A DNA stretch of 64,000 nt, from positions 9,057,730-9,121,729 of the forward strand of contig CAIIXF020000007.1 in NCBI GenBank assembly GCA_903813345.2, given 5' to 3'. Numbering within the stretch: position 1 is the stretch's first letter; each line of letters opens with the position of its first letter. Below the pieces are notes generated by a model. That model was not told the origin of the DNA and searched no databases. It was given only the letters and a program-made list of their open reading frames with translations. Origin of the DNA: Owenia fusiformis (lineage: Eukaryota > Annelida > Polychaeta > Sabellida > Oweniidae). Both the position numbers and the translations under genes were made by a program. Positions 52,256 through 62,381 of this stretch are shown here, piece by piece.

Positions 52256-52482
52256 GTATTGGATTTTCCTCGTTAGCTCACATGGTGAGCTATTGCAATC
52301 ACTCACTTGTCCGACTGTCTGTCTGTCTGTCAAAAATTGGCCAGTTTTATAACCTCTGTCAATAGGATTCTAGTTTTAAGTTATTTTTGTTCGACATCAA
52401 TATAGATTACCCCCCTATGACTCCTGGTTCAATAGCTCGCCTATTTTCAAAATGGCCGCCATTTTTTTCTCGCAAAAATCAC
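52256..52482. repeat. Dispersed repeat, left copy flanking the ACGT-array element
   Basis: Begins TTTTCCTCGTTAGCTCACAT with AGCTCACATGGTGAGCT as a palindrome, then a (TGTC)n run, then about 130 bases from 52350 that recur in direct orientation at 61904-62022 (TATGACTCCTGGTTCAA, CAAAATGG(C/T)CGCCAT). Confidence 0.75.
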
Positions 52483-52559
52483 CTTTGGACCATTCCCAGC
52501 AAACAGTGACGTCAATGTCACGTCACTCATATGTCGTATATAAGTTCACTGAAGACGTT

Positions 52560-53990
52560 GTATATTTCCGTTATATAAACGTCAAAGCAACGTAAAATTG
52601 TGACATTCAGCAAAACGTCGGTGGATGGTTAAAAAATGACGTTGTAGTAATGTGTTCGTAAAGTTCGTAATTTGTGCTGGTGTGAAAAACGTAACAGGGA
52701 CGTTGAATTTTTACCAATTTGGTCCATTTGCGACGTAATATAAACGGTAACATTTAACGTTGTCGTGACGTGTTTTAAATGTGTAAAATATTTGTAAGTG
52801 TAGGAAACATTACAAAGACGTTGCAGTTCTCACCAAATTGGTTTATTTGCTACGTAATATAAACGGTAAAATTTGACGTTGTAGTAACGTGTTTTAAATG
52901 TGAAAGATATTTGTCAGTGTAGAAAACGTTACAAAGACGTTGTGTTCTCACCAAATTTGGTACATTTGCTACGTATTGCAAACGGTAAAATTTGACGTTG
53001 TCGTAACGTGTTTTAAAAGTGAAAGATATTTGTTAGTGTAGAAAACGTCACAAAGTCGTCGTGTTCTCACCAAATTTGTTTCATTTGCAACGTAGTGAAA
53101 ACGGCTAATTGTAACGTTGTCTAAACATGGTTTGAATGTGAAAAATATTTGTTATTGTAAAACACGTTACAAAGACGTCATTTTCTCACCAAACTGGTAC
53201 ATTTGCTACGTTATGTAAACGGTAAAATTTAACGTTGTCGTAACGTGTTTTAAATGTGAAAGATATTTGCAAATTGGTTCATTTTCAACGTAGTGCAAAC
53301 GGTTAATTTCAACGTTGTCGAAACGTGTTTTAAATGTAAAAAATATTCGTAAGTGCAGAAAACGTTACAAAGACGTTGTGTTCGAAACAGAAATTGGTTT
53401 ATTTGCAACGTAGTGAAAACGGCTAATTGTAACGTTGTCTAAACATGGTTTGAATGTGAAAAATATTTGTTATTGTAAAACACGTTACAAAGACGTCATT
53501 TTCTCACCAAACTGGTACATTTGCTACGTTATGTAAACGGTAAAATTTAACGTTGTCGTAACGTGTTTTAAATGTGAAAGATTTTTGCAAATTGGTTCAT
53601 TTGCAACGTAGTGAAAATGGTTAATTGTAACGTTGTCAAAACATGGTTTGAATGTGAAAAATATGTGTAAGTGTAAAACACGTTACAAGGACGTCATGTG
53701 CTCACCAAAATTGTTCATTTTCAACGTAGTGCAAACGGTTAATTTCAACGTTGTCGAAACGTGTTTTAAATGTAAAAAATAGTCGTAAAAAATATTCGTA
53801 AGTGCAGAAAACGTTACAAAGACGTTGTGTTCTCACCAGAAATTGGCATGGTTTATTTGCAACGTTGTCGAAACGGTTAATTTTGACGTTGACGAAAGGT
53901 GTTTTAAATGTGAAAGATATTTGTAAGTGTAGAAAACGTGACAAAGACGTTGTGGTCTCAACGAATTCGTTTAATTTGTGACGTGAAGTA
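52560..53990. repeat. Tandem array, about 119-bp unit
   Basis: The marker (C/A)GTTACAAAGACGTTG recurs at 119-base steps near 52808, 52927 and 53046, then with shorter and rearranged units. A 180-base block starting at 53089 is repeated almost exactly at 53407 (offset 318). Each unit holds about five ACGT tetranucleotides (AACGTT, TACGTA, GACGTT, AACGTG). Confidence 0.85.
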
Positions 53991-53999
53991 AATGTTAAA

Positions 54000-56900
54000 T
54001 ATATAATACATTACATGTATACAGGTATGCCTCGAGTTGTGGTAACTTTAAATACTAATCGGTAAAGGCACTACTAATAGGCACAGGAATATGTTGGCTC
54101 ACACAGATGAACTTAACGATGTGAGAGTGGAAATATGGATGTAGATAAAACGTTTCTCCGACGTTGTTATTTTGCCGTGGCCTTATTGCAGACGTTTCGA
54201 CTGTCAAAAGTTTGACGTTCTGTACGTCTCGAGTCGTGAAAAATTAACGTACAGCAGTGGTAACAACACTTTGGATCACGTAACTTTTGTATTATCTATC
54301 TGATTTGATTCTATTACTACATGTATTCTAGCAATTGATTGTGTTATTTCGTGATACCATGCATTTTTTATTTCGTGATAGATGGTAAGCGCCAGTGAGA
54401 ACAGTGCCATTTTGTTTGAAATTTTCAACGGATAACCGACAATATATTTAGACATAAAAACCATTATACATCTTAGTTTATTGTCTTTATATGGAACAGA
54501 ACACAGTGTCAGATATATTCCATATGTAGATCAGTCCAAACTGCTAAACAACGACGGTTGGAGCCGATGTCGATGGTTTTATTGGATATTTCGAAAATAA
54601 GTTGACATTTTTTTAGAGAAAACAGCTTTTATAGGCCCAGGGTAGGCTAATCGTAAATGTCCCATATCAGCAACAAGACGTGACAACTATTTAACATCAG
54701 CGGGATGGCGAATCTCTTTGTTCCCCACATACATTTGGGTAGAGTCATTAGACTCCACGAAACCACAGGTGATGAAGGTATAGCAGGAACTTTTTATTTA
54801 ATTAATACATGTAAATGGCAGGTGGATTTTGTATTACCAAACCATTACCATTTCCTAGACTAATCATAATCTGAAAGCCCATAGTTTCCAATATTGTCTA
54901 GATACATAGCCTACATGTATCCCCTAAAAGATGTATATTTTACATATTTTTATTTAATGTTTGGAACAACCGTCACCATGTTATTAAGTGTTTTAAGTTT
55001 CGCAAGGATCCTGCCATGACCGTGGTACTTTTATCATGATATTGCATGGCCTGTCATGACCGTTGTAATGTTAAAGCTTACCCCGGGCCAGGACTATATT
55101 TGGGAGAATAATCTACGCCCCTTAAACTTAAGATACCTTCTTCAATAGATTCCTGGGTATTTTAGCATTCTTTTCGTGTAGCTGAATCCACAATTGTCTG
55201 GGTATATCGGCAGAACGGGAACATTTTTCTTTTTCATCGAGAGATATTCCATCACTTTCCAAGATGGTGGTTGGATTTAAAAGGGGATTCCCCATTTTAC
55301 TGACAATTACACACAATTATTGTGATTAAAAAAGAAAATTTCTTTGTTCTGCCGATAAACCTAGACAATTGTGGATACAATTTGAAATAAAAGTATAAAA
55401 TAAAGTAACAGTCTTTTAAAGTACTAGTATTGTCCTCTATTTTTCCATCTACCTTTTCTGTTTTCAGGAGTAGGAGATGAACCAGGATGTTGTAGCTTTC
55501 ACCCATGATAACCCTGAGATGACCCTTGTGTTGAGATGAGTGGTGTTCCGAGCTAATCAGGTAGGCCTACATTATCTCTCGGAACACTCAGGAATATTGC
55601 AAGTTATCGTAAAATCCTTTATAATCCTGGCAAAAATTCAAATTATTAGCTGACTTATCTATTGTGAACATGTGATATGCATTACTTTAAGGGAAAATAA
55701 TTTACGATTTAGTGCTGAGTTTCTATCATTTTTCCTTTATCAAAGCATAATATGCAGTAATGCAGGCTTAATCAAGCTTATAATGTGCTTTTAAGGTAGT
55801 CCTTCAATGACTTGCGCTATACATTCATTGTGATAGAACGGGGATATTTTCAGTCCTTCTCAAAATTATTTTCGTTCGTTAACATATTTTTTCTAGGAAA
55901 GTTAAGAGTCATTCTCAGGTATCTACTTTCCTACTGTTCCAATATTTCAAATAAGTATCCAACAGAATATTTTAATAAATACATCTGTAGTGAGGTCATT
56001 GGATGAAGATTATCAGAGTCAACGGAGGAATGTTTTGCCTATGTGATTCTAGAAATACAAAAGGATAATATGAAAAGCTACTAGGGATCTATAAACAGAT
56101 GAGCATAGGGATTGTTTTACTCAGAGTAGTCCCAAAAAGTCTCCTGAGACAAAGATCAGATCTGGTGGAAGAAAGATAACACCCCAGGTGCATTTTCAGA
56201 TAACCCATAATATAATGTTTATACTAAAAGTCTCTAAAATATTTCAGACAAACTAGCAGTACAAGCAGAATGGAACATTTGACGTTTTTTGAAGTTAGGC
56301 AGGAGAGTCCTCTGAGCTTTGAGGAAAGTGACTTCTGTAAGTCCAGGTTAATCTATATTATTCATTATAGTAGTATTTTATATATCATGTATATAAAGTT
56401 TAAGGTAGAATCAAATCTAGCAAGATCCTTGTCATTCTATATTCCAAAAATCTAAAGTGCATACTTTACTTCAGGAATACTAGAGAATTTTACCAAAGAA
56501 TTTTACAAATATGTATTTTATATGGCTTCCATATTTATATTTGGAAGAATTTAAACAGTTTCCCGATTTTTGCACTTTTAATCCTTGATATCTTACTGAT
56601 TTTGAACACATTGTAGACCTTTGAGACATATTGTATCTGAGATTGTAAAGAATAGATCGCTAGGTCAATTTTGGTTGTAAATGACACTGCAAAATATACA
56701 GAGTGGGTATGGGTATACAGGTTACATTTCATACTTTTCAATAGATTGATTTTTTCCAGGAAAATGTTCAAAAACAAGCAGAAATGGCAATGTGTTAAAC
56801 ATGCACCCAGGGAAACAACGACTGAGCTGAGTCATTTAAAGAGACATTTGGGAAGTGATGAGGACCAATGAGAGCTCATGCTTTCAAGGAAAAATGAACA

Positions 56901-58178
56901 CTTAGCATAAACAATATCTGCAAGCCAGTTTGAATTAAATTTTTATCTCTATAACAAGTAACGAGACAGTTCTTTTAAGATTGCATAGATATAATGGCTT
57001 AATACTGAAACATGCAATTTTTCTAAAGGATGAGTCTGGATATATGCCCTTTTGGTCCCTCAGTTAAATGGATGTGAAATATGATTTTTATAACTGTCCT
57101 AGTTATATTTGTTAAGTATACTTACTTTTTCATGAGTTTTGCTGAGAGTCAAAATTAGTATCCTAACAGAAAACAAATAATCATTATCATGGAAAGAAAC
57201 ACCAATTGCAACATGTATGACATGTAAAATAAAAATAACTTAAAAGGCCCATGAAGAATTTTTTAAAAAAATCATATTTTTTAAATATATTTTAGGATTT
57301 AATTTTTTTTCAAACTTTTGAATTTCCCGCCAGTTTAATTTGAAGTGGAAAAAGTAAGATGGCTGCCATTTTAAGAAATATCAGAAAAAAGTAGCTTCAC
57401 TTTTAGTTTTCACAATGAACACAGTTTTCCAGTTTTTTTTGACTGATTCTGACTCTTCATCACCAGGGTCATGCAGAGATTATAAAATTGAAACCAAAAT
57501 GTTGTGCTCAGCATGAATTTGAATGAAATATGTATAATTTCACCAACACAATTGAAGTGTCAAAACTGGATGCTCATAACTTTGAGTGACTATAATCCCT
57601 TGATTACTCAGATCAACACCAATTCACTTATCAAGAAATACCATTCAATGTCAATACAAAGAAAGAAAGCAATGTTTTGGAGGATATGTATCAAACTTTT
57701 TGTATAAATTATTCATTTAGCATTTGCACTTGAATTTTTTTTTCAATTGTGGCATAGTCATATGCATTCTCTTTGATGCCAATATTCTTCATTAATTGTG
57801 ATACAGATTGATATTTTTGTACTCTCAGAAGAAGGATAAGACATTGAAGTTTAATAATATGTGTGATTGAGTTGGTTTTTCAGACACTACTATATTCAAT
57901 ATTTCCTAAGTCAATGTCAAGACTCATCCCCAGACTCATCCTTTATTCCCCACTTAAAATGGTCATTATTGCTTATTGACAATCAACACCTTGTTAACTA
58001 ATAGAGCATTTGTTCAAGCTCAAATTAGAGTATTTATTCATTCCGTTCAGAAAAATAACAATATAACCCCTAAACAGTTAGGCTATAGATAATTACATTC
58101 ATAGTAAAGGCGGACGAACAGATCTGCCGAGATTTGGACACAATCTCGGAAATGGAATATCGAAATATCAACAAGGGT
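54000..58178. other. Interior of the 9.4-kb element
   Basis: Mostly AT-rich with no recognised gene. ACGT-rich sequence continues weakly to 54255. An exon-like stretch with a donor is at 54704-54779 (MANLFVPHIHLGRVIRLHET...), and a phase-compatible acceptor at 55468 would add VGDEPGCCSFHP and a stop. An inverted pair of about 32 bases is at 55188-55222 and 55346-55383. A frame with acceptor at 56761 ends at 56871 (LSHLKRHLGSDEDQ). None is convincing alone. Confidence 0.35.
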
Positions 58179-58690
58179 TTATCCCATACTTAGAAGTGTT
58201 AAAGGTAAATAACATGCAGGAATATAATTGATATCTAAGGTAAGCGGGTGTTATATATATCTCCCACTGAGTTGAGTGGGAGATATACTATATATCATCC
58301 GCTCATCAGCAATCCCCGGGAATTTCTTTCGGTGCTTTTTTTGAATTCCCGGGATACACTTTGGCTCTATTTGATAAATATTATTTTCATACACTTTAAA
58401 ATGTTAAAAGCTGTTGAGTTTTAAAAAAACAAAAATCTTTGAGGACTTTAAATAAAATATTCATGTTTTGATTGAAATTATCGTTTGAATTACTACATTA
58501 GGGTACCCTAACATTCAATGCATATTTAATTCTCATAATCTACTAAGTATAGGATAAATCAGTTATTAAATGCTCGATTTTTGATACAAGGTATATCCCT
58601 CGGTAAATACCCTATTTACCGGTACCGGTATATTTCCCTCAGATATACCCTGTATCAAAAATCTCCCATTAAATAACCTCTATATATTAG
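58179..58690. repeat. Composite hairpin element, copy 2
   Basis: Block A (58179-58316) matches 42892-42990, with the hairpin GGGAGATATAC/TATATATCTCCC. After about 220 extra bases, block B (58539-58690) matches 43045-43230. Its hairpin at 58578-58661 keeps the stem (TTTTTGATACA(G/A)GGTATA) but has a different, shorter top with ACCGGTACCGGT. Confidence 0.8.
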
Positions 58691-59011
58691 GTATCATTGG
58701 AAAGATAACAAGTTTTCAATTTCAAATTCAATTTCAACCCACCTCCCTAACCGTTTAGGGGTTAATAAAATACTTAATAAAACTTATTAATGATAGGATA
58801 GATTTTTGATAGATGACATACGAGACTTTTCTTTAAGTTCAATTCTGTGTGTCAATATTCTCTATCTAGATGCTCAAAAAAGTTCTTGTGTATTAACTCA
58901 TTAATTATTGGAAAAACAATATACATTTGTTAATAAGTCAAAGCATAAGTTAGTTGTCTTTTACCTTCACATGTGAAAATGCTAGGCTTAGTGTGTTATA
59001 TATAATTTTAC

Positions 59012-61850
59012 TGAACATCGGTGTCTACATCTTCCTGTACTGGAACTTTAAATTAGCTATATAATCATGTAATGATTCATTTAACTGGACGTTAGTCATT
59101 ACCGGATTACTGTCACTATATCTTGTTGATGTCATAATTAACGTTACGAGAACGTTCCTTGCACGTGTTGTCCTAACTTGATGTAACCAGAAGTTAAATT
59201 GGCCATGTATGTGACAAGAACGTTACAGTCTCTTTATTTTGGCAAAGTCGTTAAGGTTGCTACTACATTCCTTGCACGTGATATTTAAGTCAAATGTAAC
59301 GTTCTTTAAACATCTGTGCGAGTCCACACCTTCCTGTACCTACAACGTTCCATAATTAACGTACCAGAACTTTAAACCGGGCACGTATATGTGACGTTGC
59401 ATAAGTACATGACAGTTTCGTTATTTTTGCGAAGTCATTGTTAAAGTTGGTTCTTCATTCCTGGCACGTGAAACTTAAGTCAAATGTAACGTTTAATAAA
59501 CATCTGTGCGAGTCCACACCTTCCTGTACCTACAACGTTCCATATCAACGTTACCAGAAATTTAGATTGGCCACGTATATATGACGTAATGTAAATACGT
59601 CGCAGTCTCGTTATTTTGGCGACGTAATTGTTAAGGTCGCTACTACGTTCCTGACACGTGATATTTAAGTCAATTATAACGTTCTTTAAACATCTGTGCG
59701 AGTCCACACCTTCCTATACCTACAACGTTCCATATTAACGTTACCAGGAATTTAGATTGGTCACGTATATATGACGTAATGTAAGTACGTAACAGTCTCG
59801 TTATTTTGGCGGCGTAATTCTTTAGGTCGCTACTACGTTTCTGACACGTGACATTTAAGTCAAATGTAACGTTCTTTAAACATCTGTGCGAGTCCACACC
59901 TTCCTGTACCTACAACGTTCCATATTAACGTTACCAGAAATTTAGATTGGCCACGTATATATGACGTAATGTAAGTACGTTACAGTCTCGTTATTTTGGC
60001 GACGTAATTGTTAAGGTCGCTACTACGTTCCTGACACGTGATATTAAAGTCAAATGTAACGTTCTTTAAACATCTGTGCGAGTCCACACCTTCCTGTACC
60101 AACAACGTTCCATATCAACGTTACCAGAAATTTAGATTGGCCACGTATATATGACGTAATGTAAGTACGTTACAGTTTCGTTATTTTGGCGACGTAATTG
60201 TTAAGGTCGCTACTACGTTCCTGAAACGTGATATTTAAGTCAAATGTAACGTTCTTTAAACATCTGTGCGAGTCCACACCTTCCTGTACCTACAACGTTC
60301 CATTTCAACGTTACAAGAAATTTAGAATGGCCACGTATATATGACGTAATGTAAGTACGTTACATTTTCGTTATTTTGGTGACGTAATTGTTAAGGTCGC
60401 TACTACGTTTCTGACACGTGACATTTAAGTCAAATGTAACGTTCTTTAAACATCTATGCGAGTCCACACCTTCCTGTACCTACAACGTTCCATATCAACG
60501 TTACCAGAAATTTAGATTGGCCACGTATATATGACGTAATGTAAGTACGTTACAGTTTCGTTATTTTGGCGACGTAATTGTTAAGGTCGCTACTACGTTC
60601 CTGACACGTGATATTTAAGTCAAATGTAACGTTCTTTAAACATCTGTGCGAGTCCACACCTTCCTGTACCTACAACGTTCCATATCAACGTTACCAGAAA
60701 TTTAGAATGTCCACGTATATATGACGTAATGTAAGTACGTTACATTTTCGTTATTTTGGTGACGTAATTGTTAAGGTCGCTACTACGTTTCTGACACGTG
60801 ATATTTAAGTCAAATGTAACGTTCTTTAAACATCTATGCGAGTCCACACCTTCCTGTACCTACAACGTTCCATATCAACGTTACCAGAAATTTAGATTGG
60901 CCACGTATATATGACGTAATGTAAGTACGTTACAGTTTCGTTATTTTGGCGACGTAATTGTTAAGGTCGCTACTACGTTCCTGAAACGTGATATTTAAGT
61001 CAAATGTAACGTTCTTTAAACATCTGTGCGAGTCCACACCTTCCTGTACCTACAACGTTCCATATCAACGTTACAAGAAATTTAGAATGGCCACGTATAT
61101 ATGACGTAATGTAAGTACGTTACATTTTCGTTATTTTGGTGACGTAATTGTTAAGGTCGCTACTACGTTTCTGACACGTGACATTTAAGTCAAATGTAAC
61201 GTTCTTTAAACATCTATGCGAGTCCACACCTTCCTGTACCTACAACGTTCCATATCAACGTTACCAGAAATTTAGATTGGCCACGTATATATGACGTAAT
61301 GTAAGTACGTTACAGTTTCGTTATTTTGGCGACGTAATTGTTAAGGTCGCTACTACGTTCCTGACACGTGATATTTAAGTCAAATGTAACGTTCTTTAAA
61401 CATCTGTGCGAGTCCACACCTTCCTGTACCTACAACGTTCCATATCAACGTTACCAGAAATTTAGAATGGCCACGTATATATGACGTAATATAAGTACGT
61501 TACATTTTCGTTATTTTGGTGACGTAATTTTTAAGGTCGCTAATACGTTTCTGACACGTGATATTTAAGTCAAATGTAACGTTCTTTAAACATCTATGCG
61601 AGTCCACACCTTCCCGTACCTACAACGTTCCATATCAACGTTACCAGAAATTTAGAATGGCCACGTATATATGACGTAATGTAAGTACGTTACAGTTTCG
61701 TTATTTTGGCGACGTAATTGTTAAGGTCGCTACTACGTTCCTGACACGTGATATTTAAGTCAAATGTAACGTTCTTTAAACATCTGTGCGAGTCCACACC
61801 TTCCTGTACCTGCAACGTTCCATATTAACGTTGCTACAACTTTAGACATA
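59012..61850. repeat. Tandem array, 190-bp unit, with 380-bp higher-order pattern
   Basis: CATCT(G/A)TGCGAGTCCACACC starts at 59311 and at every 190 bases to 61781, fourteen starts with no indel. Diverged units lie before 59311. From 60451 on, units alternate CATCTATG and CATCTGTG together with linked changes (ACATTTTCG/TTGGTGACG against ACAGTTTCG/TTGGCGACG), so the repeating unit there is a dimer. Each unit has nine ACGT tetranucleotides. Confidence 0.97.
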
Positions 61851-61903
61851 TATTCTGTCGACGTTATCACAACGTAAAATTGTTAGCTGGGTTTGCTTTA
61901 AAA

Positions 61904-62022
61904 CCTGTGTCGATAGGATTCCCGTTTTAAATTATATTTGTTCAACATCAATACGGAAAACTCCCTTATGACTCCTGGTTCAAAAGCTCGCTTATTTTCA
62001 AAATGGTCGCCATTATTGCCCG
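61904..62022. repeat. Dispersed repeat, right copy flanking the ACGT-array element
   Basis: About 80 percent similar by eye to 52350-52482 and in the same orientation; it begins 12 bases after the GCTGGG end. It lacks the upstream part present in the left copy. Confidence 0.75.
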
Positions 62023-62381
62023 CGAAATATATGATATATGAATACTAAAAACGCAAACAAGTTGAACTTGGAATTGCTGACTATGTTAACCTACTTTAAA
62101 AAATCTTTTCTAAAGAGTTAATTGTATAAGGTTTACAAAAAAATGACACTTGAAATAATTTATCACCCATGGAGCAAATTGATTTTTTACTGTATTGATA
62201 CTTTACTGTTTAATAAATGGTGAATGACAGCCCAATTAAGTTCTATAAGTATGAGAATGGCATGACGTCATGATATTTCAAGGTAGCGGCGTTTGCAATG
62301 TGATGGCGGTGATTGTAATTACGATGTTAAGGTAAAACGGCAACGAAATATTTGTAGATTTCTTTGAAAAACTAAGAAATA

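Follow-up and report, generated by a model that had tools for sequence, protein, structure and literature searches.

In the annelid Owenia fusiformis, a 64,000-nucleotide stretch of genomic DNA (the window) carries at its positions 52495-61891 a DNA transposon of 9,397 bp (genome position C7:9110224-9119620) that has discrete ends, 2-bp target duplications and copies dispersed through the genome, and in which two tandem arrays, one toward each end, are paired and a pair of closely spaced ACGT words stands beside both termini. We think it likely that this is a non-autonomous CACTA element of the TRC type, for which the enzyme is supplied in trans and whose ACGT-dense arrays serve as docking platforms. 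The family is new but of a kind already known, and a limited search of the open-access literature found no paper on an animal CACTA element in which one helically spaced code is common to two subterminal satellites of unrelated sequence.

Termini, insertion site and genomic copies

The window copy starts with CCCAGCAAACA (52495..52505, plus strand) and finishes with the reverse complement of CCCAGCTAACA (61881..61891, minus strand), exactly the inverted CCCAGC(A/T)AACA ends that an earlier reading of the window, made from the sequence only, had described. The two copies of its target duplication, TT at 52493..52494 and again at 61892..61893, are placed by comparison of the flanks and by empty sites. 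The element stands in a host tandem repeat of about 150 bp, the left part of which is at 52325..52492 and the right part at 61894..62028 (both plus strand), and which is common in the genome with 1,161 candidates, 40 of them scored. Seven paralogous, element-free copies of this repeat align straight over the junction once one TT is kept, and so the window element made a 2-bp duplication; the junction bases in these empty repeats are TT in six cases and TC in the seventh.

Within the 498-Mb genome CCCAGCWAACA followed after 0-12 bases by ACGT has 169 matches, as against 13 for a reversed control. There are 74 exact left ends and 83 exact right ends, and 61 of the former could be paired with a right end in inverted orientation, the nearest one, no more than 45 kb away, giving copies with a median length of 11,382 bp and a range from 845 to 42,179 bp, the pairing that yields the longest being doubtful. 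Of the 13 left and 22 right exact ends that have no pair, some (among them those of C5, of two C8 copies and at C2:31945120) have a partner with an altered base or a lost terminus. Flanks were compared in 23 copies with both termini intact, copy C2:31934589 being dropped from the count because its left terminus is lost, and a 2-bp target duplication is present in 19 of them. Its sequence is not fixed, with TT, AC, TG, AT, CT, GA, AA, TA and AG all represented. A search for end-bounded copies and their target duplications, which the sequence-only reading had proposed, thus found both. Between four large copies that were compared with one another, identity is 94-99% over most blocks; between these four and the window copy it is 81-94%. 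Blastn pieces below 80-150 bp were left out, the limit being 30 bp in the case of the short copy, and so were pieces that overlap. Given the high identity between copies, movement of the family was probably fairly recent.

The expectation that the two arrays would not occur independently of each other is upheld at 61 of the 74 exact left ends, but on C446, C3 and C6 right ends stand alone. Those at C3:31207686 (L045) and C6:27240789 (L046) were read and are truncated, with a family match of about 473 and about 275 bp respectively followed by unrelated DNA; a variant, CCCAGCTAACAAATTT, is common to both of them and to the C5 copy. The satellite contig C446 (L023, L024) has six of the exact right ends, 7.5-11.7 kb apart, and in the 16 kb of it that was read two whole right ends of about 0.8 kb each lie inside a 70-bp satellite; it seems that in this contig a higher-order repeat was amplified with a truncated right end inside it. 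At C8:15846430-15867489, which was read at its ends, and at C12:27292754-27314782, for which the basis is end coordinates only, one member of the family is inside another in inverse orientation. The 845-bp copy, at C10:3729821-3730665 (L080), consists of only 519 bp of left end and 329 bp of right end and is more than 99% identical to a large copy; it is either a naturally occurring minimal element or a larger copy that has lost its interior where it stands.

Two unrelated arrays with one shared word

Tandem Repeats Finder (TRF) placed the rows of the left array between 52686 and 53926 (plus strand), with a main period of 119 bp and others of 80, 120, 138, 198 and 318; 8 units were recovered in the window copy, and 7-16 units are present in the seven copies measured. 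The right array, at 59216..61846 (plus strand), is a 190-bp unit repeated 13.9 times with 93% matches. Alignment of the left with the right unit scored 25 forward and 19 in reverse, as against a shuffle mean of 18.1 and shuffle maxima of 32 and 36, and on this comparison the 119-bp and 190-bp units are unrelated, as the sequence-only reading had it.

Both arrays are dense in ACGT. The left array region has 55 in 1,506 bp, where 300 dinucleotide shuffles gave 28.2 +/- 3.9 with a maximum of 38, and the right array region has 124 in 2,811 bp against 46.9 +/- 4.8 (maximum 61). In the interior between them (54291..59080), where blocks align with larger copies at 84-92% identity, there are 2 in 4.8 kb, against 5.5 in shuffles. 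Expressed per kb this is 36.5 on the left, 44.1 on the right and 0.4 in the interior; the remainder of the window has 2.8. As copies within an array are not independent, the test was rerun on one consensus unit per array, which has 5 against 2.6 in shuffles on the left (P 0.034) and 9 against 3.4 on the right (P 0.0005). The unique end pieces have 7 against 2.9 (left, P 0.0015) and 4 against 1.1 (right, P 0.006). The predicted excess over a dinucleotide-shuffled background is therefore present in both arrays, and also per consensus unit and in the unique ends. Observed CpG exceeds expectation in the arrays, with ratios of 2.14 and 1.77, and falls short of it in the interior (0.48) and the remainder of the window (0.81).

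The spacing of the word is not the 20-25 bases at first supposed. It is uneven, neighbors within the left unit being 11, 33, 24, 11 and 39 bp apart and those within the right unit 25, 23, 11, 23, 46, 13, 25, 11 and 13, a range of 11-46. The closest neighbors in the window arrays are 11 bp apart, with none nearer, and pairs at this distance occur within both arrays as well as at both ends of the element, where CCCAGCWAACA is followed by 3 or 5 bases, ACGT, 7 bases and a second ACGT (in the window copy at 52509..52523 on the plus strand and 61861..61875 on the minus strand). Where the two end listings overlap in the genome, 92 of 94 family ends have this arrangement. The seven bases within the left-end pair vary (CAATGTC, CCATGTA, CCATGTC, CCATGTG, TCATGTC) and the spacing is constant. 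When the double-ACGT end was used to search for sister families, 92 + 86 matches were found as against 31 + 17 for a control, and the 8 of 100 listed that are not of the family look like chance.

The divergence of individual columns was compared in units from seven copies, 75 of the left array and 78 of the right; units that cover under 90% of the consensus were excluded. The suggestion that the ACGT core is kept while its flanks vary holds for the left array, where divergence is 0.034 in ACGT columns, 0.079 outside them and 0.111 in the columns next to the core (permutation P 0.023), but not significantly for the right array. In right units a CpG that is not part of an ACGT has a variation of 0.130, roughly double the 0.062 of a CpG that is.

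Classification and the search for a transposase

The element is best filed, by its ends alone, as a non-autonomous member of the CACTA/EnSpm superfamily of the animal TRC type, and the comparison with Spm that had been made from the sequence was a good lead. The filing is based on the CCC ends, the 2-bp duplications and likeness to an end from Hydra. For animal TRC elements 2-bp duplications are described, and a terminal inverted repeat (TIR) that starts with CCC, seen in three species, is put forward by the authors concerned as a suggested trait (PMC1636069); the present family has such a TIR and such duplications, the latter seen in the copies compared and at the empty sites. The TIR of the Aedes aegypti TRC element is given as CCCAGTCAAC (PMC1636069), and 8 of its 10 bases match. 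Hydra Spongebob_HMa, which is EnSpm-4N1_HM, is described as a TRC CACTA element with the end CCCAGCCAACATTGAC (PMC4298943), and this TIR is shared with the present element, 14 of 16 bases, counted by eye, matching its left end CCCAGCAAACAGTGAC and 11 of 16 its right end. Compared by its printed TIR and description, the Hydra element is alike also in its 2-bp duplication and in a consensus without a readable transposase, and it differs in being 5.8 kb long (PMC4298943), where the median here is 11.4 kb. SmTRC1 likewise has the CCC core, a 2-bp duplication (in 7 of 14 copies) and an internal tandem-repeat region, but, as described, it has a TIR of 54 bp and encodes Transposase_21 (PMC1636069), whereas the element here has no recognized coding gene. 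Transposase_21 was not found in the interior of the C11 copy, in the plus frames of the window or, going by the listed matches, in the paired copies; a non-autonomous family would lack it, and so the ends are what the filing has to go by.

The characteristic plant CACTA termini and 3-bp duplication are not present, the ends here being CCCAGC and the duplication 2 bp. In maize Spm the protein TnpA recognizes subterminal repeats that are needed in cis, and CACTA families within one species can differ in their subterminal repeats (PMC2613891). The plant elements Spm/En and soybean Tgmt* resemble the present one in having asymmetric subterminal motifs and a family-specific code, with a separate binding protein in their case; in contrast, the Tgmt* motifs are described as 12-20 bp long and the regions that hold them as 159 and 732 bp (PMC2613891), where the present element has kilobase satellites.

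The same genome has a sister family with an intact Transposase_21, an identical protein of 608 amino acids (aa) being encoded at nine places. Left and right it is bounded by CCCCGGCGAAA, and three listed pairs span 14,457 bp; its TIR matches that of the present family at 6 of 11 bases. Four of six pairs have 2-bp duplications, namely two of the four full-length copies and both short relatives. Its subterminal arrays have a 301-bp unit on the left and a 152-bp unit on the right, and the word in which both are dense is GAATA, at 41.5 and 35.8 per kb at the ends as against 3.1 in the interior. Its neighbors lie 10-11 bp apart in 14 of 49 left and 9 of 41 right intervals. The likeness to the present family is thus in CCC ends, duplication length, two word-dense arrays and spacings of 10-11 bp; the differences are GAATA in place of ACGT and the intact 608-aa open reading frame (ORF). 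Two copies (C1:24231595-24246051 and C6:14000976-14015432; loci L054, L055, L058-L061) are 99.96% identical over 12.4 kb, and with this and the nine identical proteins the sister family was probably recently active. The autonomous relative that the sequence-only reading had asked for accordingly exists in the form of an intact Transposase_21 relative, but it is a sister family with a different code.

Within the present family no ORF of at least 110 aa was found in the window copy, and the longest across the window copy and four larger copies is 135 aa. ORFs of at least 110 aa in the C5 copy, C446 and the outer C8 copy, and of at least 120 aa in seven further stretches, include no transposase, and in the 17.5 kb examined of a 26.5-kb C10 copy the longest ORF among those of at least 110 aa is 126 aa. 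Outside C5, ORFs longer than 135 aa were met only where the truncated right ends of C3 and C6 adjoin DNA that does not match the family. Pfam searches with six frames of the C11 interior and the three plus frames of window positions 54000-59001 gave nothing above cut-off (DUF7038 appeared at E 0.053), and in those three window frames no family appeared at E 0.1. In the genome at large Transposase_21 has 14 matches by profile and 44 rows by protein. The loci L056, L057 and L079, considered as a partner, have no CCCAGC pair with dense ACGT, and by coordinates none of the more diverged Transposase_21 loci (such as C2:10.95 Mb, C3:34.55, C5:41.56, C6:6.10 and 6.21, C10:36.72 and 36.81) is near an exact family end, though a Transposase_21 partner with changed ends is still conceivable. 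A search with CCCAGCSAACANTGAC gave two single matches only.

The 25-kb C5 copy (C5:13211407-13236321, L020-L022), which has a matching 2-bp duplication, includes about 21 kb with little family match, either nested insertions or carried host DNA. Pfam was run on L021 in six frames, on L020 in its three minus frames and on L022 in one, and an intact sulfotransferase-like ORF of 352 aa is over its cut-off; a further ORF we take to be reverse-transcriptase-like, and another, of 429 aa, is presumably P-loop ATPase-like.

Proposed docking platforms and alternative readings

In the mechanism that we propose a Transposase_21-type transposase, supplied in trans, would cut at the CCCAGC termini and insert the element with a 2-bp stagger. 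The subterminal arrays would be docking platforms, their ACGT-N7-ACGT pairs, about one helical turn apart and so on one face of the helix, being bound by a protein with the role that TnpA has for maize Spm; by this analogy docking of a TnpA-like protein is the most likely role of the pairs. The binder could be encoded separately by the transposon or be the DNA-binding part of the transposase itself. Having many sites in each array would help to bring both ends of the element together, and the arrays may grow and shrink via unequal exchange or slippage with the code being kept. Counting in favor of this reading, besides the ends and duplications, are the excess of ACGT, the 11-bp pairs in both arrays and at both ends, the parallel organization of the sister family and the 845-bp copy, in which nothing but parts of the two ends is left.

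The main rival, in our judgment an unlikely one, is that the arrays are targets of an anti-silencing protein, like the targets of VANC in the VANDAL elements of Arabidopsis, which we take to be Mutator-like and so of another transposon class. The arrays are CpG-rich relative to the interior and the rest of the window, with each ACGT holding a CpG, and two families in one genome have two different codes. VANC targets are noncoding tandem repeats with short family-specific motifs that diverge quickly, a likeness to the present arrays, but the function there is anti-silencing (PMC10398659), and no such gene is recognized in the copies here. The sister code, GAATA, has no CpG, and ACGT is just 3-5 bp inside from the 11-bp terminal repeat on both sides. 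This position beside the termini, and the N7 pair at nearly all listed ends, point to end recognition. That the arrays instead bind a host factor, for instance a bZIP protein, as a promoter or insulator is quite improbable: bZIP sites of the TGACGTCA type contain ACGT, and GACGTC and CACGTG are among the contexts present, but the flanking bases vary with no single extended site dominating, and no gene was recognized in the interiors scanned.

A passive satellite, in which ACGT density is a by-product of composition and of the amplification of chance units, is improbable as well, in that ACGT is in excess over dinucleotide-preserving shuffles in each of the two unrelated units and each of the two unique ends, and an autonomous family has a parallel code; in its favor, right ends have also been amplified inside an unrelated satellite, and it gains from some of the conservation and spacing results considered below. 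Highly improbable is membership in another superfamily with 2-bp duplications, either Tc1/mariner or ISL2EU of PHIS. Tc1/mariner elements duplicate TA. ISL2EU, also known for 2-bp duplications and our first guess on that account, duplicates AT and has ends that usually start with GG (PMC4482050), and was dropped; the ends here start with CCC and, besides AT and TA, the duplications include TT, AC, TG, CT, GA, AA and AG.

Several findings tell against the interpretation of the arrays as docking platforms of a TRC element. ACGT columns in the right array diverge by 0.043 as against 0.055 elsewhere (P 0.23), so that their conservation is not significant, and the 11-bp floor in spacing is unremarkable under random placement for the left unit (P 0.18; 0.017 for the right), both being points for a passive satellite. 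At least two spacings of 11 bp have under random placement a probability of 0.009 on the left and 0.04 on the right, and all of the spacing statistics are derived from just 14 independent neighbor intervals. Four of the 23 copies compared (C11:2891837, C6:8260884, the inner C8 copy and the 845-bp copy) have no matching duplication, and two of the six sister pairs, both full-length, also have none. The termini are neither CACTA nor CA..TG. No transposase was recognized in the copies examined by ORF listing or Pfam, no listed Transposase_21 match is inside a paired copy, the nearest compared being 98.5 kb from an exact family end, and we know of no protein that binds the ACGT of these arrays.

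A broader idea, to which we give slightly less than even credence, is that each animal TRC family has a private, helically phased code (ACGT-N7-ACGT in the present family, GAATA at 10-11 bp in its sister) that has colonized two unrelated satellites, selected as multivalent, code-specific docking platforms even as their other sequence turns over, with giant non-autonomous copies keeping their arrays because platform size drives competition for the machinery supplied in trans. The Owenia genome has a pair of CACTA-type families in each of which the left and right arrays have in common a short word peculiar to the family, and this makes the code, the spacing rule and the partner protein directly testable outside plants. 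A further suggestion is that a transposon can have large satellite-like arrays among its functional components.

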